Below, piece after piece: positions 5,177 to 61,787 of a stretch of 64,000 bases of DNA; the stretch's first letter is position 1, and each line of letters begins with the position of its first letter. The stretch is from Nostoc sp. PCC 7524 (lineage in GTDB: Bacteria > Cyanobacteriota > Cyanobacteriia > Cyanobacteriales > Nostocaceae): assembly GCF_000316645.1 (NCBI RefSeq), contig NC_019684.1, forward strand, positions 4,183,501-4,247,500. Reading direction: 5' to 3'. The translations under genes were made by a program, and so were the position numbers. Under the pieces are notes generated by a model, which ran no database searches, was not told the DNA's origin, and was given only the letters and a program-made list of their open reading frames with translations.

Positions 5177-5283
5177 TAGTGTGGCTAAATTATTCCGGTT
5201 GTGCCAATAAAATTTTTGACTCAGCACTCAGAACTGGCTAAACGCCGCGCTACCGCTAACAGCACTCACTTTCAACCACAAAT

Positions 5284-5383
5284 TAAAAAGCACCTGGGAG
5301 TGTTGCCGTGTTTCCACCCCAAGTGCTTTTTGCTTTCAAATTGCTCCTCACACACAACTGGAGAATATCACTTATTTTCTTGA
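5284..5383 (-). ncRNA. small RNA, copy A (Yfr2-like)
   Basis: On the minus strand a block GTGTGTGAGGAGCAA is followed by a 14-bp hairpin (5285-5331; AAAAAGCAC... pairing with GTGCTTTTT, one G-U) whose loop reads GTGGAAACACGGCAACACT and which ends in a U run. GGAAACA loop motifs are typical of the cyanobacterial Yfr2 family. A TATACT at 5390-5395 is a fitting -10 element for a start near 5383. A second copy, with its own upstream sequence, lies 160 bases away. The family name is from memory; that it is a small RNA gene is well supported by the duplication. Confidence 0.6.
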
Positions 5384-5445
5384 AGGGCAAGTATATTGTG
5401 TGACACTTTGTGAACTGCACAGACAATAGTGTTTTGTCAATCAAT

Positions 5446-5536
5446 TAAAAAGCGCCTGGGAGTGTTGCCGTGTTTCCACCCCAGACGCTTTTTAGTTTCA
5501 ACTTGCTCCTCACACACAACTAGAGAATATCATTAC
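5446..5536 (-). ncRNA. small RNA, copy B (Yfr2-like)
   Basis: A near-identical partner of copy A: hairpin 5447-5493 with AAAAAGCGTCTGGG pairing to CCCAGGCGCTTTTT, the same loop, and the same GTGTGTGAGGAGCAA block upstream. The hairpins differ by compensating changes (GCAC/GTGC against GCGT/GCGC), which supports selection on structure. TATATT at 5543-5548 is a likely -10. The upstream GTGCAGTTTGCAAACTGTCAC matches GTGCAGTTCACAAAGTGTCAC of copy A, so promoter and RNA were duplicated together. Confidence 0.6.
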
Positions 5537-48456: not shown

Positions 48457-51400
48457 TTAGCACTTAGCACCCAAAGTCATTAAGGCAGATTTTTGAGGCG
48501 TTGTTAAACCTGTTACTGCATAGATATTCATCTGTTCATAAATCTGCTCGGCTTTGAAAGTATTGATACGCTGTTTTGTGTTCATATCCCAAATTGTGAT
48601 AGCAGCATAACCATCACCAGCCGCGAGAAGATTACCTTCTGGGTTGAAGGCAGCGCACATTACCCAAGTGTCATGTCCTTCTAAGGTAGCTATACAATTA
48701 CCACTGCCTACATCCCAGAGTTTAATTGTATTGTCGCTGCTGGTACTAGCTAGGGTACTACCATCAGGACTAAAAGCGATCGCCCACAGCATATCTTCAT
48801 GTCCTTGCAGTGTGTGGAGACATTCCCCTGTTTCTACATCCCATAACTTGATGATTCTCTCTACACTACTACCAGTAGCCAAAGTCCGACCATCAGGGCT
48901 AAAAGCCACCCACCATACCCAGTTATGATGTCCGGAAATTGTGCGGTAGCACTGTTTGGTGGTGATGTCCCAAATGTTAACGGTGTAGTCAAAACTACCA
49001 AATGCTAACTTTGTGCTATCGGGACTAAAAGCAACTGACATTCCTAGGTGTACGGGGAAGGTATCTAATAATTGTCCCGTAGCCGCATCCCACAATTGAC
49101 TGGCTTTGTCATAGCTAGTGCTAGCTAAAAATCGCCCATCAGGACTATAGGCGACTCCTGTCACCATGCCTACGTGTCCTTGGAGGGTTTTGCTACACTG
49201 ACCTGTGGTGACATCCCATAACTTAATGGTGGTGTCAGCACTGGCGCTGGCTAGGGTGTGTCCATCTGGAGCAAAGTCTACATCAAAAATCAAATCTGTG
49301 TGTCCGTATAAAATACGACATTCACCGTCTAATGTCCAAAGTCGTACAGTCCGGTCTTCATTCCCACTTGCAACGATCGCTGTCATGGGACTCCAGGCTA
49401 CGGATTTTACCCAGTTATTTCTGCCCTTAAATGTTCTAAAACACTCACCAGTGGCGACATCCCACAACTTGAGAGAGAAATCATCTGCACCAGTAGCCAG
49501 TAAAATACCTTGGGGGTTAGCTGCGATCGCATCTACTGAATTGGCGTGTCCTTGCAAGGTTTTCAGGCATTGAAAAGTAGTAATATCCCAGAGGCGAATT
49601 GTACAATCTATACTGCAACTAGCGAGGATTTGATCGTTGATGAAGGCGATCGCTAGTATGCCATTAGAATGTCCTTCTAAAACGCCGAGGCCAACACCTT
49701 GATCCACATCCCAAAGTCTAATTGTTTGATCTAAGCTCCCACTAGCAAGTATTCCTGATGAACTAAAAGCAACAGATTTGATCCAATCTGTATGTCCTTG
49801 TAAGGTATGAATACAAGAACCTGTAGTTATATCCCATACTTTAACTGTGTGATCTCCACTACCGCTAGCGAGTATATTACCTTGAGGATGCAACTTTACA
49901 GACCAGACTTTACTGCTATGTCCACGCAGAATTTGAGTACATTCCCCCAAGTTGATATCCCAAAATCTAATAGTAGATTCAGCGTAACTACTTATTAAAG
50001 TAGTTCCATCGTGATGAAAAACAACACTAAGAACACCACCATGATGACTGGCTAGAGTTTGCCAACACTGGCCGGTTTTGACATCCCACAGCTTAATATT
50101 GCCATCTTGTCCCGCAGTGGCTAAGGTACTACCATCAGGACTAAACGCCACACACCAAGTCAAACCTATATGTGCCTGACATTCAATTAATTGCTGACTA
50201 CTGACGACATCCCAGATAATTAAGTAACCATCGAAATGACCGGTGGCCAAGGTTTTACCATCAGGACTGAAGGCTATAGTCATAATATTAGAAAAAGTGG
50301 TAGCAAATACAGATTTCGATAAATCCGCATGAGCAAAGTTCACTCTTTTGAGAGGAGTGTCTTGGAGATAGACTTGCCAAATTGTTAAACCAGAGAAATT
50401 ATAACCAGTTAAATCAGTTTTGAGGTGGCACAGAAGATTTAAGATATTACCGCCTGCGTATCCTGGTTCTAGAGGAGAAGATGGATTTTTGATTGTGTGT
50501 AAAATCTGTGTGAGTTGAGTTTCTATTGCTTGTTTAGTTCGTAGATTTTGCAATAAATACTCAATGATGGGTTGAAGAATGAGCTTGGTTTGAGCAATGC
50601 GGATGTAATCTTTAGCAGTGGCTTTAATTACAGCGTGGCTGTTAAACAGTGTGGGAGTTGTCTGTTGATGCTGGAGAATTTCTGTACATACCTGCTGTAT
50701 AAATTGGTTTGCCACATATTCCATCACCACGGGTTGCAGCGTGAAATGAACTGATGTTTCTGGAAGAGATTTTTTTTCAATCAGATTACGCCGACTCAGA
50801 GAATCTAGAGCCTCAAGGAGTTTCATTGATGATATTGGTAAGACCAAATCGCCACGTAAATCTGCTAAAGTGACAGCCTCGCGGTTAATCGCTAACCAGA
50901 AAATTAGGTCTTTTTCTAAAAGTGATAGACGATAGAATTGCTGCCCTAACAAGTCGTAAATACTACCAAAAACTGTAGAACCTTGAGCGAAAAATTCCGC
51001 GATATTACCATCAAATAATTCTTGAATCGTAGTAGCGATAATTTTTAAAGCCAGGGGATTACCAGCGTAGTGTTGAATGAATTTTTGCCAATCAGCATCA
51101 GAACCGCAGAAAAAGCTTTTCGTTCTAACTAATTCTAAAGCAGCGATCGCACTCAAACCTGGAAGTTGCATTGATCGCACTGGCAGATTCTCACCTTCTA
51201 ATCCTGCTACTTCTTGGGGTTTTTCGCGGCTGGTGAGGATGACACAACTTTGATGAAATGTTTCACCGATTTGCTTGAATAAATTGCCGTAGTTTTCGTA
51301 ACCCAGTTGGTAACGCCCAGAATGATCGCCACTAGCTAAGATTGATTCGGTATTATCTAGGATTACCAGACAACGGTGCGATCGCAAATGCCCCATGAAC

Positions 51401-52155
51401 TGTGAAATCAGATGAGTAACATTCTCTGATAAACTCACAGGTTGTCCGCAGGCGAAGAATTGCAGCAAATTCGCTAGCAGTTCCCCCAAGGTGGGACTAT
51501 TGCCCAGACTGCGCCATACCACAAACTCAAACTCCCCTTGAATTTGCTGTGCTAGCTTCACCGACAGAGAAGACTTACCAATTCCCCCCATGCCTAATAA
51601 TGCTACCAACCGACAGCGATCGCGAATTATCCAATGGGCTAATTTACTAACTTCCTCTGTACGTCCGAAAAAAATTGATACATCAACAGCTTCACCCCAG
51701 TCTGTGTGGGGAGTGGGGAGGAGCCACTGCGTTGCGGAGGACAGTTGCGTGGGCGGGTTCCCCGACTTGAGCAAACTGTCCGTTGGGGTTTCCCCCGTTG
51801 TAGCAAGTGACGTTGGGGAGTTGGGAGTAGGGGAAGATAAGGTAGTGAGATTGCTTGCTTGTTGCTCCGTGTTCCTATTGGCTTCTGTGGCGCGAACATA
51901 ATCTTGGGGGGTTAAATCTAAACCAAAGGCTCGAAAAAAATAGGTCAGAGTTTGCTTATCAACCCCTTCTTCCCGTGACAAAACCTTAGAAATAGTGAAA
52001 GGAGCTAACTGAGTACGGTAACTCAATTCTTCGATGGTGAGCCTAGCCCCATCGTTTTCCAACATCTCCGCTTGATGCCTAGCCTCCTGAAGCTTGCTAA
52101 ATCCAGAAAGACTGAGGATAACACCACGCCTGCGTTTTTGCTTGTGCAATTCCAT
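48457..52155 (-). CDS. STAND NTPase: HTH, NB-ARC, pentapeptide-like and 14 WD40 repeats
   Basis: A 1232-residue signalling protein. Order: N-terminal helix-turn-helix (about 35-90), repeat-derived linker (about 100-145), NB-ARC (P-loop ALLGMGGIGKSSLSV, Walker B CLVILDN, ILTSREKP, GNPLALKI), winged-helix region, pentapeptide-like NFSGLTIWQVYLQDTPLKRV, then 14 WD40 units each ending in LWDV-like motifs, enough for two seven-bladed propellers. STAND proteins assemble on ligand binding; the ligand and output are unknown, and no catalytic effector domain is fused. Some relatives are anti-phage sensors, but no defence genes adjoin it. Confidence 0.92.
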   Translation of the reverse strand: MELHKQKRRRGVILSLSGFSKLQEARHQAEMLENDGARLTIEELSYRTQLAPFTISKVLSREEGVDKQTLTYFFRAFGLDLTPQDYVRATEANRNTEQQASNLTTLSSPTPNSPTSLATTGETPTDSLLKSGNPPTQLSSATQWLLPTPHTDWGEAVDVSIFFGRTEEVSKLAHWIIRDRCRLVALLGMGGIGKSSLSVKLAQQIQGEFEFVVWRSLGNSPTLGELLANLLQFFACGQPVSLSENVTHLISQFMGHLRSHRCLVILDNTESILASGDHSGRYQLGYENYGNLFKQIGETFHQSCVILTSREKPQEVAGLEGENLPVRSMQLPGLSAIAALELVRTKSFFCGSDADWQKFIQHYAGNPLALKIIATTIQELFDGNIAEFFAQGSTVFGSIYDLLGQQFYRLSLLEKDLIFWLAINREAVTLADLRGDLVLPISSMKLLEALDSLSRRNLIEKKSLPETSVHFTLQPVVMEYVANQFIQQVCTEILQHQQTTPTLFNSHAVIKATAKDYIRIAQTKLILQPIIEYLLQNLRTKQAIETQLTQILHTIKNPSSPLEPGYAGGNILNLLCHLKTDLTGYNFSGLTIWQVYLQDTPLKRVNFAHADLSKSVFATTFSNIMTIAFSPDGKTLATGHFDGYLIIWDVVSSQQLIECQAHIGLTWCVAFSPDGSTLATAGQDGNIKLWDVKTGQCWQTLASHHGGVLSVVFHHDGTTLISSYAESTIRFWDINLGECTQILRGHSSKVWSVKLHPQGNILASGSGDHTVKVWDITTGSCIHTLQGHTDWIKSVAFSSSGILASGSLDQTIRLWDVDQGVGLGVLEGHSNGILAIAFINDQILASCSIDCTIRLWDITTFQCLKTLQGHANSVDAIAANPQGILLATGADDFSLKLWDVATGECFRTFKGRNNWVKSVAWSPMTAIVASGNEDRTVRLWTLDGECRILYGHTDLIFDVDFAPDGHTLASASADTTIKLWDVTTGQCSKTLQGHVGMVTGVAYSPDGRFLASTSYDKASQLWDAATGQLLDTFPVHLGMSVAFSPDSTKLAFGSFDYTVNIWDITTKQCYRTISGHHNWVWWVAFSPDGRTLATGSSVERIIKLWDVETGECLHTLQGHEDMLWAIAFSPDGSTLASTSSDNTIKLWDVGSGNCIATLEGHDTWVMCAAFNPEGNLLAAGDGYAAITIWDMNTKQRINTFKAEQIYEQMNIYAVTGLTTPQKSALMTLGAKC
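51700..51835. repeat. dispersed repeat within the STAND coding sequence
   Basis: GGGGAGT units, then GCGTGGGCGGGTTCCCCGAC and TTGGGGAGTTGGGAGTAGGG. The core matches the intergenic element at 22604-22630 with small changes that keep the reading frame. Confidence 0.7.
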
Positions 52156-52416: not shown

Positions 52417-52614
52417 ATGTTTGCATCAATTATTCTGCTAATGCGTAACCATCTGGGTAATACCAAGTTTAATCAACTGCGTGGCAAATTGATTGCTATG
52501 CACGCTCAGACTATCACTTACTTTTGCGATCGCTTTCATATTGACAATGCTACCCGTCAGCATCTCATCCGTCTAGCTCGTGACAACGGCAAACGTTTGG
52601 GGTTACTTGCTTAA
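52417..52614 (+). CDS. small hypothetical protein (65 residues)
   Basis: A basic, soluble protein with MRNHLGNTKFNQLRGKLIAM, HAQTITYFCDRFHI and TRQHLIRLARDNGKRLGLLA, regular enough to be real. The start could be ATG 52417 or 52441; neither has a good ribosome site. Similar sequences of about 40 bases flank it (52303-52350 and 52608-52651). It stands 92 bases before the NdhK-like gene on the same strand. Function unknown. Confidence 0.6.
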   Translation: MFASIILLMRNHLGNTKFNQLRGKLIAMHAQTITYFCDRFHIDNATRQHLIRLARDNGKRLGLLA

Positions 52615-52706: not shown

Positions 52707-53414
52707 ATGACAAACACAATTATCAATCCCGCAGAAACTCCCCAAGTTACCCAAAACCTATCAGAAAACTTCATTCTTACCACCCTAGACGACCTGTATA
52801 ACTGGGCGAGAATGTCCAGTTTGTACCCGATGATGTTTGGTACAGCCTGCTGTTTCATGGAATTTATGGCCGCTTACGCTTCCCGCTTTGACATGGAAAG
52901 ATTTGGCATGATTCCCCGTGCTACTCCCAGACAAGCCGACTTAATGATTACCGCCGGCACAATCACTATGAAGTATGCACCAAATTTAGTGCGACTTTAT
53001 GAACAAATGCCCGAACCCAAATATGTTATTGCAATGGGAGCTTGCACCATCACCGGCGGAATGTTTAGTGTTGATTCTCCCTCGGCTGTCAGAGGTGTAG
53101 ATAAATTAATCCCCGTAGATGTCTACATACCCGGTTGTCCTCCCAGGCCAGAAGCCGTCATTGATGCAATTATCAAACTGCGGAAAAAAATCGCTAATGA
53201 CAGTCTGCAAGAAAAGCAAAACACCCAACAGACTCACCGTTATTACAGCACCACTCACAAAATGAAAGTAGTTGAGCCAATTCTCAACGGACAATATCTC
53301 AGAAGCTCAAAGCGTGAAATACCACCCCAAGAACTACCTCCCTCATCCTCATTCCAACTTGCACCAAACACAAAACAGAAAACTTCCGTAAAACCTCCGT
53401 GTCCCTCCGCGTAA
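52707..53414 (+). CDS. NdhK-like (NuoB family) iron-sulfur subunit, paralogue
   Basis: Closely related to NdhK, the N2-cluster subunit of the NDH-1 complex. All four cysteines are kept: [10 protein letters not shown] (two), [10 protein letters not shown] and GCPPRPEA. It differs from the usual NdhK around [20 protein letters not shown] and [10 protein letters not shown], and there is no ndhC or ndhJ beside it. Instead two Coq4-type genes, a methyltransferase and a P450 follow. The C-terminal residues ([12 protein letters not shown]) come from a CCTCCGTGTCCCTCCGCG repeat. It may be an alternative NDH-1 subunit or a redox partner of the cluster. Confidence 0.88.
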
Positions 53415-53438
53415 ACCTCCGCGCCCCTTTGCGTTGCT
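53395..53438. repeat. dispersed CCTCCGCG repeat at the end of the NdhK-like gene
   Basis: CCTCCGTGTCCCTCCGCGTA and CCTCCGCGCCCCTTTGCGTT span the stop codon of the NdhK-like gene and fill the gap to the next start. Confidence 0.6.
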
Positions 53439-54398
53439 ATGAATATGTTTGTCTTCTCCCCTCAAGAACTCCCCTTTGTCTTAGCAACACTCACCACAGT
53501 AGCCGCTCAACCAAAAACACTCTCACCCCTAGAGCAGCAATTTTTACAGGTAGTGAATCAACTACACCAAGGTAATGTAACAATTGCAGACTTATCCCCC
53601 ATCACACCTGCACAGATAGCCGAAGTAATTCCTCATCCCCACCAACGCAAAATCTTACTACAGATGGCGATGGTGATGGCGATGGTAGATGGGGAGATTA
53701 CACCCATACAACAAAAAGCATTGCGATCGCTAGCTGATATCCTAGGTGTGAATGAACAAGGCTTAAGAGTATTACACAAAGCAGCCAACGGTCACAAACT
53801 CCTCGCCCGCATCGATATGATGCGGCGGATTATGGGCAAATTTATGGGTGCTGCTTACCAACAAGAAGGATTTCTTGGCATTAAGAAAATGCTAACTCCC
53901 TTCTTCAATGGTGGCGAAGATGCAGAAGTCGCTTGGAAGTATCGCCAATTAGGACTACTACCACAAGGAACTCTAGGCCGTATCTTTTGGGAACACTGCA
54001 CCCAACACCACTTTAGTTTTCCTGGTGAAGCTGGCGGTATTCCTGAACGCTTAGTATTTCATGATTTTGGGCATATCCTCTCAGGTTATGGCACAGATCC
54101 CCAAGGTGAGATTCAGCAGGGAGCATTTCAAGCAGGTTACATCCGCGAAGATGGCTTTGTATTTCTGCTATTTGTAATTTTACATTTCCATTGGGGGATG
54201 CAAATCACACCTGTTGCAGATGCCAATGTGGGACTGTTTGATATTCCCTTAGTCATGCACGCACTGCAAAGAGGAGCAGCTTGTAAAGTAGACCTTTCCG
54301 ATAATTGGAACTTTTGGGAAGTAGTGGATGTGTCTGTAGGTGAGTTACGCGATCGCTATAGTATCCCTTCCCTTGAGCTTAAAGGCAATAGGGAGTAG
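53439..54398 (+). CDS. Coq4-type protein with N-terminal TerB-like domain
   Basis: A 319-residue protein. The N-terminal 130 residues are helical and include MAMVMAMVDGEITPIQQKAL, reminiscent of TerB-like domains. The C-terminal part has FHDFGHILSGYGTDPQGE (His208, Asp209, His212, Glu224), exactly the HDXXHX11E zinc motif of Coq4. Coq4 in eukaryotes and proteobacteria acts on a ubiquinone precursor ring; cyanobacteria make plastoquinone, so the substrate is probably another quinone or lipid (inference). It starts 24 bases after the NdhK-like stop. Confidence 0.8.
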   Translation: MNMFVFSPQELPFVLATLTTVAAQPKTLSPLEQQFLQVVNQLHQGNVTIADLSPITPAQIAEVIPHPHQRKILLQMAMVMAMVDGEITPIQQKALRSLADILGVNEQGLRVLHKAANGHKLLARIDMMRRIMGKFMGAAYQQEGFLGIKKMLTPFFNGGEDAEVAWKYRQLGLLPQGTLGRIFWEHCTQHHFSFPGEAGGIPERLVFHDFGHILSGYGTDPQGEIQQGAFQAGYIREDGFVFLLFVILHFHWGMQITPVADANVGLFDIPLVMHALQRGAACKVDLSDNWNFWEVVDVSVGELRDRYSIPSLELKGNRE

Positions 54399-54440
54399 GG
54401 AATGGGGAGTAGGGTAATTTTCAACACAGGAGAAATTCCC

Positions 54441-55493
54441 ATGAATGAAAAAAAACTGCAAGCATTTGTAGGACAGGTTGTTGCTGATATGGCAGCCAGT
54501 ATGTCCGCAGCGATGACAGATATTGGACACAAACTTGGTTTATATCAAGCAATGGCTGGTGCAGGGCCAATGACAGCGATGGAACTAGCTTTAAAAACTG
54601 ATATCCATCAGCGTTATGTGCTGGAGTGGTTAAATAACCAAGCCGCCGGCGGTTACGTCACTTACGATCCAGTTAATCACACCTACGAGTTACCCGACGA
54701 ACACGCAATGGTGCTGGTGAATGAAGCTAGTCCTGTATTTATGGCTCCAGGGTTTGATTCTGTGGCTGCCATGTGGCTGGATGAAGAAAAAGTTATAGAT
54801 GCTTTTCGTACTGGCAAAGGTATTGGTTGGCATGAACATCATCATCGGCTGTTTTGCGGTACTGAAGCATTTTATAAAACTGGCTACCGCAGCTTTTTGA
54901 CTACAGAATGGATTCCGGCTTTAGAAGGTGTAGAGGACAAATTAACAGCAGGTGCCAAGGTTGCTGACGTTGGTTGCGGTCATGGTGCATCTACAATCAT
55001 CATGGCTCAAATGTACCCAAATTCAACATTTTGGGGTTTTGATTATCATGATCAATCCATTGAAGTCGCTCGTCAACGAGCCGCAACTGCCGGAGTTGGA
55101 GACAGAGTAAAATTTGAGGTAGCAACGGCTAAGAATTTTCCCGGCTCTAACTACGACTTAGTTTGTTTCATGGATTGTCTGCACGATTTGGGAGATCCTG
55201 TAGGTGCAGCCAAGCACAGCCGAGAAGCATTAGCGAATGATGGTACTGTACTGCTAGTTGAGCCATTTGCTGGCAATGAAGTTGAGGAAAACCTGAACCC
55301 CGTAGGTAGGCTTTTTTATGCTGCTTCTACGGCATTTTGTACTCCTAATTCTCTCTCTCAAGAAGTGGGTTTGGGACTAGGCGCACAAGCAGGAGAAAAG
55401 AGACTGGCACAAGTGATGTCTCAAGCTGGTTTTAGCCAGTTTCGACGTGCTACACAGACACCGTTTAATCTCATCTTAGAAGCCAAGGTGTGA
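54441..55493 (+). CDS. SAM-dependent methyltransferase with winged-helix N-terminus
   Basis: A 350-residue class I methyltransferase: a helical/winged-helix N-terminal half (AMTDIGHKLGLYQAMAGAG, TDIHQRYVLEWL) and a Rossmann domain with AKVADVGCGHGAST, WGFDYHDQSIEVARQRA and LVCFMDCLHDLGD. It resembles the Rv2258c-like group of small-molecule methyltransferases. I start at ATG 54441 with AGGAGA upstream. It lies between two Coq4-type genes in the same direction, so O- or C-methylation of a quinone-like ring is an obvious guess. Confidence 0.85.
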   Translation: MNEKKLQAFVGQVVADMAASMSAAMTDIGHKLGLYQAMAGAGPMTAMELALKTDIHQRYVLEWLNNQAAGGYVTYDPVNHTYELPDEHAMVLVNEASPVFMAPGFDSVAAMWLDEEKVIDAFRTGKGIGWHEHHHRLFCGTEAFYKTGYRSFLTTEWIPALEGVEDKLTAGAKVADVGCGHGASTIIMAQMYPNSTFWGFDYHDQSIEVARQRAATAGVGDRVKFEVATAKNFPGSNYDLVCFMDCLHDLGDPVGAAKHSREALANDGTVLLVEPFAGNEVEENLNPVGRLFYAASTAFCTPNSLSQEVGLGLGAQAGEKRLAQVMSQAGFSQFRRATQTPFNLILEAKV

Positions 55494-55570
55494 ATTTTAG
55501 CCAGAGCGATCGCTAGTTGGGAGAATAAGATTAAAGGCGATCGCCTCACCCACAATCAGGGTAACTGATT

Positions 55571-56224
55571 ATGCTCAAACAATTACACAAAATCAAGGCT
55601 CTTTTGGCAGCTAAAAACTCCGGTCATTTGGGTGATTTTGCCATTCTCAAGTCTGATTTATTTGGTGCTAAAGTCGCACCCGAAGTAGCTACCAGAATGC
55701 AACCATTACAGGGATATCATCCGCCGATTGATTTAGAGAAGTTAAATCAATATCCTCCAGGCACATTTGGCCGGGAATATGCCACTCATATGCAAGCAAA
55801 TCACCTCCAGCCAATGAATGTTAGCCCAGAATTAGAGGCTGTGGCTAGGCGCAATGTCTTTGCTTTACGCTACGTCGTCACCCACGATATTTTTCATGTT
55901 TTACTTGGCTTTGATACTACCTACGCAGGTGAAATTGGCGTATTAGCTTTTGCTGCGGAGCAAAATTTTAGTAAATCTCTTAAAATCAGCTTACAGTTAG
56001 CTAAATTTCTTTATCCTTTACTGGCTCCTCAACAAACCAAGATGATTTTCGCCAACCTCAAAAAAGGTCAAAAACTAGGTAGAAAAGTAGATTTTTTGTT
56101 AAGTTATCCCTTTGAAGAACACTGGCATGAACCCATTGAGGAATTGAGAAAGCATTTAGGATTATTAGAATTGATCATAAATCCACCAATTACAGATAAT
56201 ATTCTTTCTCAAGATTCCATCTAA
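55571..56224 (+). CDS. Coq4-type protein
   Basis: A 217-residue protein with the whole Coq4 core: THDIFHVLLGFDTTYAGE holds His105, Asp106, His109 and Glu121 in HDXXHX11E order, preceded by FGREYATHMQANHLQP and followed by FEEHWHEPIEELRKHLG, all typical of the family. It is only distantly similar to the other Coq4-type protein of the cluster. A P450 gene starts 24 bases later behind AAGGAG, so the two are probably cotranscribed. Confidence 0.88.
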   Translation: MLKQLHKIKALLAAKNSGHLGDFAILKSDLFGAKVAPEVATRMQPLQGYHPPIDLEKLNQYPPGTFGREYATHMQANHLQPMNVSPELEAVARRNVFALRYVVTHDIFHVLLGFDTTYAGEIGVLAFAAEQNFSKSLKISLQLAKFLYPLLAPQQTKMIFANLKKGQKLGRKVDFLLSYPFEEHWHEPIEELRKHLGLLELIINPPITDNILSQDSI

Positions 56225-56248
56225 AGCTTTAGATAAGGAGCATTACTG

Positions 56249-57631
56249 ATGATTACAGCACAAGAAAATTCCACCAATCAAATTCTTCCTAAGTTACCAA
56301 TTAAACCACCCATACCTAGATGGCTACAAACTTTGAGGGTGCTGATAAATCCTATCTATTATCTCCAGAAAACACAACAGGAATATGGTGATATATTCAT
56401 ATCAGAATTTGGTGGCTTTCCTGCACAAATAATTATTAGTAATCCCCAAGCTATTCAAGAACTATTTACTGCTGATGCTCAATTATTTTATTCAGGTGAA
56501 GGTAATAATACAATTGAACCGTTGGTAGGGACTAACTCGTTGATTTTGTTGGATGGCGATCGCCACTTACAACAGCGTAAACTTTTAATGCCTTCTTTCC
56601 ACGGTGAACGAATGCGGGCTTATGGTGAGTTAATCCGTGATATTACTAAGCAAGTCGCCAGTCAATGGAATATCAAAAAGCCATTTGTTGCCCGTCCTAC
56701 TATGCAGGATATTTCTCTGCAAGTCATTCTCAGGGCTGTATTTGGACTCAAGGAAGGTGAACGTTACCAACAAATCAAACAAGTTTTAACTGAGATGTTG
56801 GATAGTTTTAATTACCCTTTGAGTGCTGTTTTTCTATTTTTCCAATTTTTGCAACATGATTTAGGTGATTGGACTCCTTGGGGAAGGTTTGTACGCCGCA
56901 GAAAGTTACTGGATAAATTGCTTTACCAGGAAATTAATGAACGTCGCACTCAAGTTGAGAATCAAGGTGAAGATATTTTGAGTTTGTTATTGTCTGCGCG
57001 GGATGAAAATGGTCAACCCATGACTGATGTCGAGTTACGGGATGAGTTAATGACTATGCTATTTGCTGGGCATGAAACTACAGCGATCGCTTTATCTTGG
57101 GCATTATATTGGGTGCATTATATTCCTGAAGTTCGCGACAAATTACTGCAAGAACTCAACTCGATTGATATAGCAAATGCAGACCCTACAACAATTACTC
57201 AATTACCTTATTTAAATGCTGTTTGCTCAGAAACCCTAAGAATTTATCCGGTAGCTTTCTTTAGTTTTACCCGCATTCTCAAAGTACCGATGAAATTCAT
57301 GGGTTACGATTTATCCCCAGAGATGAGAATTTCTCCCTGTATTTATTTGACTCACCATCGCCCAGATATTTATCCTGAACCTGAACGATTTAAACCAGAG
57401 CGTTTTTTAGAACGTCAGTTTTCACCTTATGAATTTTTCCCCTTTGGTGGTGGTAATCGTCGCTGTTTAGGTATGGCATTTGCCCTGTTTGAAATGAAGT
57501 TAGTTTTAGCAACAATCCTCTCAAATTATTCCTTGGAATTGCTAGACAAAGTGCCGCTCAAACCTGTGCGCCGTGGTATAGTATTTGCTCCCAATGGTGG
57601 CGTAAATTTGATGGTAAAAGAGAAGAAATAG
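56249..57631 (+). CDS. cytochrome P450, CYP110-like
   Basis: A 460-residue P450 without an N-terminal anchor. Oxygen-binding I-helix AGHETTA near residue 272, K-helix ETLR, and the heme loop FGGGNRRCLG with the cysteine ligand near residue 406. The general look is that of the cyanobacterial CYP110 family, some of which hydroxylate fatty acids or terpenes. AAGGAGCATT gives a strong ribosome site. As the last gene of the cluster it could hydroxylate the product of the Coq4/methyltransferase steps. Confidence 0.92.
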   Translation: MITAQENSTNQILPKLPIKPPIPRWLQTLRVLINPIYYLQKTQQEYGDIFISEFGGFPAQIIISNPQAIQELFTADAQLFYSGEGNNTIEPLVGTNSLILLDGDRHLQQRKLLMPSFHGERMRAYGELIRDITKQVASQWNIKKPFVARPTMQDISLQVILRAVFGLKEGERYQQIKQVLTEMLDSFNYPLSAVFLFFQFLQHDLGDWTPWGRFVRRRKLLDKLLYQEINERRTQVENQGEDILSLLLSARDENGQPMTDVELRDELMTMLFAGHETTAIALSWALYWVHYIPEVRDKLLQELNSIDIANADPTTITQLPYLNAVCSETLRIYPVAFFSFTRILKVPMKFMGYDLSPEMRISPCIYLTHHRPDIYPEPERFKPERFLERQFSPYEFFPFGGGNRRCLGMAFALFEMKLVLATILSNYSLELLDKVPLKPVRRGIVFAPNGGVNLMVKEKK

Positions 57632-60527: not shown

Positions 60528-61787
60528 CTAACGCTTTGCTAGTTCTGGTGTTCGTCCTTTCAAGCCAATCATTAATTTGAGCATGAATATTTTCAACACA
60601 GGTACACGCCCTAAAAACCATAAACCTAAGCGACGCACTAGCACTACAGGTAGGAATTGATTAGAAAACATCCGATCTAACAAGTCGGTGAACCCTAAAA
60701 TCGTTAGGTTCTCGCGCTTGCGCCAACTTTCATAGCGTTTGAGTACCTGGAGTTTCCCAATATCTTCACCTGCTTGATGGGCGGTTTGAATGATTTGCGC
60801 CAAGGCTGCTGCATCTCGAATGCCCAAGTTTAAACCTTGTCCACCGACGGGATGACAATTGTGGGCGGCATCTCCCAGCAATGCCAAGCGGTGTAGGGCA
60901 TAACGATCGCTTTGCATGAGTTGTACCGGAAAAATAAAGCGATCGCCTAGCAATTCCAACTTACCCATTTGATTACCGTAGCGGCGGGTGAGTTCTTCTA
61001 AAAATTGCTCGTCATTTAAAGCACACAAGGCTTTGGCTTCCTCGTGGGGAGCTGTCCAAACGATGCGGCAACGGTTTCCCGGTAAAGGTAAAATCGCAAA
61101 GGGGCCACTCGTCCAAAATCTTTCGTAGGCGGTGTCGTTGTGAGGTTTTTCCGGTTTGACGAAGGCGACAATACAAGACTGCCAATATTTCCAGCCGTGA
61201 GTTTTAATTCCAGCCGCTTGGCGAATAGGCGATCGCGATCCATCGGCGGCTACAACTAACTTACTTCGCACTACATTAATTTGCCCGGCAATGTTGATTT
61301 CTATTACTGCTTCCTTTTGTTGATACTGTATATTTACCACTTCTGCCGGACACAGATAAGACACATTCGGGCAATTGTGGACAAACTCCTGCAAAGGTTG
61401 CAATAAAGCTTGATGTTCTGCCACATAACCCAACTCTGGTGTCCCTAAATCGCTGGTTTGAAATTCCACCACATCAGGATAATCGGCATCAGATAGGCGG
61501 ACTTGGCGGTATTTTGCAATCTGGGGTAATATCTTATCCCAAATGCCAATGCCTTGGTAAATAAGGGCTGAGAGCATATGCACTGCGTAGGCTTGCCCTT
61601 TGGAGACTGCGGCTGATGTCACTTTAGCTTCAATCAGCAGCACACTCAAGCCCGAATCTTTTAAAGCGGCGGCGAGAGTTAACCCAACAATTCCACCGCC
61701 GACAATTACCAAATCATAATCATATCCCCGCAATTCTGGCGGTGTCGGTTGGGGGGAAATAGTTTGATTAAGCTGCTTTAGCGCCAT
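60528..61787 (-). CDS. UbiH/Coq6-family FAD-dependent hydroxylase
   Basis: A 419-residue flavin monooxygenase. The FAD-binding VIVGGGIVGLTLAAAL, the VVAADGSRSPIRQ (DG motif) and LLGDAAHNCHPVGGQGLNLG (GD motif) are all intact. Related enzymes hydroxylate the ring of ubiquinone precursors; in cyanobacteria the role is open and could be plastoquinone-like lipids or salvage. It lies 3 kb from the Coq4/P450 cluster on the other strand. Confidence 0.9.
   Translation of the reverse strand: MALKQLNQTISPQPTPPELRGYDYDLVIVGGGIVGLTLAAALKDSGLSVLLIEAKVTSAAVSKGQAYAVHMLSALIYQGIGIWDKILPQIAKYRQVRLSDADYPDVVEFQTSDLGTPELGYVAEHQALLQPLQEFVHNCPNVSYLCPAEVVNIQYQQKEAVIEINIAGQINVVRSKLVVAADGSRSPIRQAAGIKTHGWKYWQSCIVAFVKPEKPHNDTAYERFWTSGPFAILPLPGNRCRIVWTAPHEEAKALCALNDEQFLEELTRRYGNQMGKLELLGDRFIFPVQLMQSDRYALHRLALLGDAAHNCHPVGGQGLNLGIRDAAALAQIIQTAHQAGEDIGKLQVLKRYESWRKRENLTILGFTDLLDRMFSNQFLPVVLVRRLGLWFLGRVPVLKIFMLKLMIGLKGRTPELAKR

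Follow-up and report, generated by a model that had tools for sequence, protein, structure and literature searches.

The stretch of DNA analysed here (the window) comprises 64,000 nucleotides (G000:C2:4183501-4247500) of the 6.7 Mb genome of Nostoc sp. PCC 7524, which its relatives also mark as cyanobacterial. It contains a run of five open reading frames (ORFs), all on the forward strand and separated by gaps of 24, 3, 77 and 24 bases, so that the preliminary description of this DNA was right to speak of five same-direction genes with short gaps. The first gene encodes a second copy of NdhK, the iron-sulphur subunit of the NDH-1 complex, here called NdhK2. NdhK2 is a separate lineage under purifying selection, with changes around the quinone pocket and with recurring neighbours. 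The five genes are as follows.

52707..53414, + strand: NdhK2, a second NdhK/NuoB-type subunit (Oxidored_q6; N2 cysteines C48, C49, C113 and C144; Y40; M54)
53439..54398, + strand: gene 2, a TerB-like/Coq4-like fusion (HDxxHx11E at residues 208-224)
54441..55493, + strand: S-adenosylmethionine methyltransferase with a Rv2258c-like winged-helix domain (listed ORF start 54402; 54441 preferred)
55571..56224, + strand: gene 4, a Coq4-family protein (HDxxHx11E at residues 105-121)
56249..57631, + strand: cytochrome P450 (P450 family match; motifs FGGGNRRCLG and AGHETT)

The NdhK2 lineage and its quinone-site residues

The assignment of the first product as an NDH-1 type iron-sulphur subunit is confirmed. 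It matches the NuoB/NdhK family (Pfam Oxidored_q6, 105 bits, cut-off 27) and retains all four N2 cysteines. Residues 4-213 of its 235 match the NdhK of solved NDH-1 without a gap, the C-terminal tail included. NdhK2 thus resembles the NdhK of cyanobacterial and chloroplast NDH-1 (for example 6hum chain K) over nearly its full length and in its N2 cysteines, but differs in lying outside the ndhC-ndhK-ndhJ setting and in carrying fixed changes near the quinone pocket. The other NdhK of the same genome is at G000:C2:4346918 (locus L066; here and below, L numbers denote loci and G numbers genomes), with a NdhC-like ORF before it and a NdhJ-like ORF after it, both named by eye. Next to NdhK2, neither NdhC nor NdhJ was found.

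In a tree of 54 NdhK2 sequences, 23 canonical NdhK and 3 further copies, the canonical sequences and those 3 copies are separated from NdhK2 by a branch of 0.34 that has a support of 88. A root placed by means of three distant NuoB-like sequences (branch 3.0) is unreliable; with it, the NdhK2 of L019, L057, L061 and L178 lean towards the canonical side, with a support of 69. NdhK2 is present in at least 51 of the 155 genomes of the family. These calls comprise 49 genomes with scores of at least 388 bits, a fragment (G191) and one sequence placed by the tree (G617), the other matches listed being at about 380 bits or less; more genomes with over one match (for example G599, G610, G625, G643 and G687) were left unassigned, and 51 is therefore a lower bound. 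NdhK2 was also found in the unclassified cyanobacterium CCP5 (L018) and in two genomes of other families (G060 and G039). The protein slr8031 of Synechocystis pSYSG, which was joined to the alignment and not to the tree, has the NdhK2 signature residues Y40, M43, M51, M54 and Y90 in common with the window protein. The name itself is not new, slr8031 being already called NdhK2 in a review table (PMC7058544).

Two side observations concern other copies. A different NdhK paralog at L059, L063 and L065 groups with canonical NdhK, and at L065 it is preceded by a NdhH-like gene (identified by eye). In two related genomes (G649 and G631; loci L161 and L166), the one NdhH identified is located about 3 kb downstream of NdhK2.

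Comparison of the 54 NdhK2 with the 23 canonical sequences over residues 20-165 gives 17 positions that are fixed differently (each residue in more than 80% of its group). Thirteen of them fall within residues 35-73, the region that holds the tandem N2 cysteine pair (hypergeometric p 7e-6, for a region picked after the list of differences had been seen). The six quinone-site residues of NDUFS7 tabulated in a review (PMC9503403) correspond, on alignment to mouse NDUFS7, to positions 40, 53, 54, 69, 70 and 71 of the window protein. Position 40 is Trp in all 23 canonical sequences and Tyr in all 54 NdhK2; its equivalent is listed there as Trp46 of the quinone channel. Position 54 is Ala in 23/23 canonical sequences, and in NdhK2 it is Met in 49 of the 54, with Ser in three and Ala and Ile in one each. 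The same table gives its equivalent as Met60 of bovine NDUFS7, with the side chain directed toward the centre of the head group. Three remote genomes within the phylum (G236, G106 and G240) encode NuoB-like sequences that likewise have Met here and are assumed to belong to ordinary complex I.

The median ratio of nonsynonymous to synonymous substitution (dN/dS) of NdhK2 is 0.08 (53 sequences), which indicates purifying selection; that of canonical NdhK is 0.036 (23 sequences). The values for the partner genes are 0.063 (methyltransferase), 0.138 (the gene 2 type, TerB-Coq4), 0.150 (the gene 4 type, Coq4), 0.151 (P450) and 0.191 (a VOC protein found at other loci).

The neighbouring enzymes and their recurrence

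The preliminary description recognised two Coq4-type proteins with complete HDxxHx11E motifs. Both do carry the motif seen in COQ4 and in the cyanobacterial protein Alr8543 (PDB 6e12), and gene 4 is clearly Coq4 (69.6 bits, cut-off 22.9). Gene 2, unlike these proteins, is a fusion with a TerB-like part and falls below the Pfam cut-off (Coq4 E 0.05, 13.3 bits against 22.9; TerB E 1e-4, also below cut-off). Its H208, D209, H212 and E224 are however invariant across 13 aligned sequences, and a profile of these 13 finds Alr8543 with E 7.6e-6. Neither protein matched PHROGs. Relatives of TerB-Coq4 are also found in an acidobacterium, two Burkholderiales-type records and a deltaproteobacterium. COQ4 is reported to decarboxylate a coenzyme Q precursor in vitro in a zinc-dependent manner (PMC7615680), and for Alr8543 the obsolete entry 3KB4 is described as containing geranylgeranyl monophosphate and 6E12 as containing magnesium ions (PMC9774615).

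The identification of the remaining two genes as a small-molecule methyltransferase and a P450 is borne out. For the methyltransferase, position 54441 is a likelier start than 54402, because it is preceded by AGGAGA and because six relatives (350-356 residues) begin there. The protein carries a HTH_65 Rv2258c-like domain and matches two solved structures over most of its length, 8g5s (TnmJ, the best, E 7e-54) and 5f8c (E 2e-45), the latter entered in the database as 'Methyltransferase' and taken by us to be Rv2258c. The likeness to these enzymes lies in this sequence match and in the domain. TnmJ is part of the cluster for tiancimycin, an anthraquinone-fused enediyne (PMC9464397). The P450 scores 278 bits.

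The check proposed in the preliminary description was conservation of the five-gene order, and lack of it outside close relatives was to count against the idea. All five genes occur together in only 2/155 genomes, that of the window and that of Scytonema sp. NIES-4073 (G622), and the orders differ, the methyltransferase being ahead of TerB-Coq4 in Scytonema. Conservation of the literal order is thus rejected, but the association itself recurs. Among 47 Coq4 loci (46 stretches around Coq4 orthologs, and the window), a P450 ortholog follows Coq4 within 1.5 kb in 29 (two of the matches being partial), and this part of the arrangement is therefore not due to chance. NdhK2 lies within 3.5 kb upstream of Coq4 in 19 of these loci. 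In 14 of them a UbiA 4-hydroxybenzoate prenyltransferase is no more than 10 kb away from Coq4, a count that is limited by the ends of the stretches. In many loci an LDcluster4 gene, an unknown gene and this UbiA are found downstream on the other strand.

The neighbourhood was also counted from NdhK2, taking one locus per NdhK2 genome and adding 31 stretches for copies outside the earlier ones. In 34 of the 51 loci counted, which are a lower-bound set, at least one partner lies downstream of NdhK2 in the same orientation, no more than 4.5 kb away: P450 in 23, Coq4 in 20, VOC in 10, methyltransferase in 9 and TerB-Coq4 in 7. These counts use cut-offs on identity and none on length, and so include fragments (for example the methyltransferase of L156, the Coq4 of L165 and the P450 of L115). 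At L152, two small SnoaL/NTF2-like ORFs (by eye) surround NdhK2, which is followed by the methyltransferase and a glycosyltransferase-like ORF.

Across the 155 genomes Coq4 is present in 47 (including four partial or broken copies, in G568, G611, G651 and G536), P450 in 38 (leaving out G640, G655 and G666, at 63-64% identity), the methyltransferase in 11 (leaving out a 36% match in G642) and TerB-Coq4 in 8 (of which G604 and G618 have only fragments and G635 a split copy; 32%-identity matches in G619 and G641 are left out). Among the NdhK2 matches listed, NdhK2 co-occurs with the methyltransferase in 10 of 11 genomes (Fisher p 6e-5), with TerB-Coq4 in 8 of 8 (p 9e-5), with P450 in 23 of 38 (p 6e-5) and with Coq4 in 23 of 47 (p 0.009, odds ratio 2.7). 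Coq4 and P450 are together in 27 genomes. The methyltransferase has no link to Coq4 or P450 in the same set (p 0.7).

Oxygenase-type neighbours accompany NdhK2 in other lineages as well. In CCP5, NdhK2 comes after genes for a nitronate monooxygenase, a small ORF, a YdhR-type monooxygenase and a TerB-Coq4 protein (49% identical to that of the window), all in the same orientation. The plasmid pSYSG has relatives of the first three of these (77%, 40% and 71% identity) directly before slr8031, and no TerB-Coq4. The three genes had no match at any other locus searched. The G039 copy of NdhK2 is followed, about 4 kb away and on its own strand, by genes for an ABM monooxygenase and a VOC protein; the interval holds two ORFs of opposite orientation. 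TerB-Coq4 is also found without NdhK2 in Argonema (L070, by eye) and G393 (L071, families scanned), where it closes a run of genes for an aromatic ammonia-lyase, an AMP-ligase, a ScyA-related enzyme and a ketoacyl synthase III, to which G393 adds an O-methyltransferase. These clusters resemble that of the window in placing TerB-Coq4 beside a pathway for an aromatic compound, but no NdhK2, gene-4-type Coq4 or P450 ortholog was matched in those stretches.

The preliminary description knew of no account of this combination, and likewise no description of NdhK2 beside Coq4, P450 or the methyltransferase was found in the open-licence literature, although subscription work may exist. Among the open-licence reports retrieved for Coq4, cyanobacteria and P450, none concerns such a cluster, as judged by title and, for one (PMC5159609), by passages. 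Searches of the same literature for plastoquinone together with NdhK, NdhH and the binding of quinones, and for pSYSG with NdhK, found nothing, and the one for slr8031 led back to the review that names NdhK2.

Possible functions of the NdhK2 neighbourhood

An altered copy of NdhK, next to a changing set of quinone-type enzymes, may point to a quinone, or a compound of the quinone site, that has not been described so far. We put forward, as a tentative reading and the one we prefer, that NdhK2 is an alternative quinone-site subunit of NDH-1 and that the enzymes beside it have as their substrate a prenylated aromatic compound or quinone which binds at that site. NdhK2 would replace the ordinary NdhK in complexes that share the single NdhH, and would give them a remodelled pocket, with Trp replaced by Tyr in the channel and Ala by Met facing the head group. 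The neighbouring enzymes would then act on the compound that occupies this pocket, the Coq4-type proteins probably through a reaction of the decarboxylation type at a metal site, the P450 by hydroxylation and the methyltransferase by methylation. The changes in the pocket are explained both by a ligand that accepts electrons and by one that inhibits, and we slightly favour a modified quinone as electron acceptor. A pathway modifying a quinone, prenyl or fatty lipid compound and perhaps feeding a special NDH-1 had already been suggested in the preliminary description, and is supported in part. In its favour are the separate lineage, the pocket changes, the recurring neighbours and the presence of oxygenase-type genes beside NdhK2 in Synechocystis and CCP5; the lack of a conserved order and the occurrence of the genes apart from one another speak against it, as far as sequence can indicate.

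Several observations weigh against the alternative-subunit reading. Only two of the six quinone-site positions are changed, which is not significant alone (p 0.14), and Met54 is absent from 5/54 NdhK2. No second full-length NdhH was found in the 14 genomes tested, each having one (G620 has an additional match that is partial, and G668 one that is weak). Seventeen of the 51 NdhK2 loci counted have none of the five partner types. Going by the NdhK2 matches listed, 14 genomes have NdhK2 alone of the five genes, and it is missing from 26 genomes that have Coq4 or P450; such independent losses do not strictly fit the acceptor or the inhibitor version, and keep alive the possibility that the neighbours are unrelated. 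The p values for co-occurrence are overstated, because related genomes were taken as independent, and the distance of CCP5 is judged by sequence identity only, because CCP5 is unclassified in the taxonomy. The idea that Coq4 stands in for a missing UbiD was rejected, since all 7 genomes tested have UbiD, and Coq4 is therefore not needed for that role.

Duplication of a target beside biosynthetic genes is a known pattern, and it is conceivable, though rather unlikely, that the locus is a tolerance island, in which the enzymes make or break down a blocker of the NDH-1 quinone site and NdhK2 is an insensitive copy that sustains respiration and cyclic electron flow. A variant copy of a core housekeeping protein does lie in the cluster, as in natural-product self-resistance (NdhK being only a hypothetical target), and NdhK2 persists alone in the 14 genomes mentioned, as a tolerance gene might. 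The VOC, YdhR and ABM neighbours belong to families that also occur in tailoring or resistance. The changed positions are moreover contacts of complex I inhibitors, Trp46 being reported with a biguanide and Met59/Met60 in the rotenone pocket (PMC7614227, PMC9503403). However, the scaffold-building synthase of a natural-product cluster was not found among the ten window genes scanned, and the 26 genomes with Coq4 or P450 and no NdhK2 are awkward if the product poisons canonical NDH-1. We regard it as about as doubtful as this that NdhK2 is a condition-specific NDH-1 subunit whose neighbours are unrelated to it and have no more in common than their site, a rapidly changing one flanked by the WD40 gene and the UbiA-Ppx block. 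The gene content between these flanks does vary freely, fragments included, NdhK2 is found at other sites too, and its co-occurrence with Coq4 is modest; but chance sharing of a site fits poorly with the same-strand adjacency in two thirds of the NdhK2 loci, with methyltransferase and TerB-Coq4 orthologs nearly confined to NdhK2 genomes (among the matches listed), or with TerB-Coq4 adjoining NdhK2 even in CCP5, at just 49% identity.

The retained N2 cysteines, the lack of any NdhC or NdhJ seen alongside and the recurrence of oxygenases would also suit a role outside NDH-1, in which NdhK2 would be a small iron-sulphur protein that either passes electrons to the oxygenases next to it, such as the P450, or serves them as a scaffold. 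We consider this very improbable: N2 is normally buried in the complex, and the similarity to NDH-1 NdhK, tail included, together with the strong purifying selection, suggests that the interfaces with the complex are kept.

Within the alternative-subunit reading, an improbable but specific version is that the ligand is a ubiquinone-like quinone, formed from a prenyl-hydroxybenzoate by decarboxylation (Coq4-type), hydroxylation (P450) and O-methylation, and reduced by NDH-1 containing NdhK2. The change of Ala to Met would, with similarly low probability, recreate the head-group Met of the complex I that reduces ubiquinone and menaquinone. If true, there would be a second quinone circuit inside a plastoquinone membrane. 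Known variants of NDH-1 differ in their membrane-arm subunits, and an exchange of the quinone-site subunit that goes with quinone-type enzymes would, if real, retune the complex in a new manner. The association also provides a genomic partner for the Coq4 proteins of bacteria, which are poorly understood. One NdhK2, slr8031, belongs to the model strain Synechocystis 6803, which allows quick tests.

Other features of the window

Three further genes lie around the cluster.

48457-52155, - strand: WD40 protein gene, upstream of NdhK2
52417..52614, + strand: small ORF of 65 residues, upstream of NdhK2, with relatives near other NdhK2; its membership of the unit is uncertain
60528-61787: UbiH-like hydroxylase, downstream of the cluster

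The small ORF matched no Pfam family. In 10 of 44 clustered loci a relative (66-77% identity) precedes NdhK2 by 0.4-4.1 kb in the same orientation, and 13 of 50 NdhK2 stretches contain a match somewhere. A scan for transcription signals gave results near chance, with 17 promoter-like sites (mean 12.6, standard deviation 3.7) and 6 terminator-like sites (5.2).

A WD40 gene is upstream of NdhK2 on the opposite strand in several Nostocaceae loci, and a WD40 protein is also encoded upstream of slr8031 on pSYSG; WD40 coordinates recorded besides those of the window are L200:578-4291. Elsewhere in the window, two matches to the Cyano-1 small RNA lie in tandem on the - strand, at 5282-5357 and 5444-5519.

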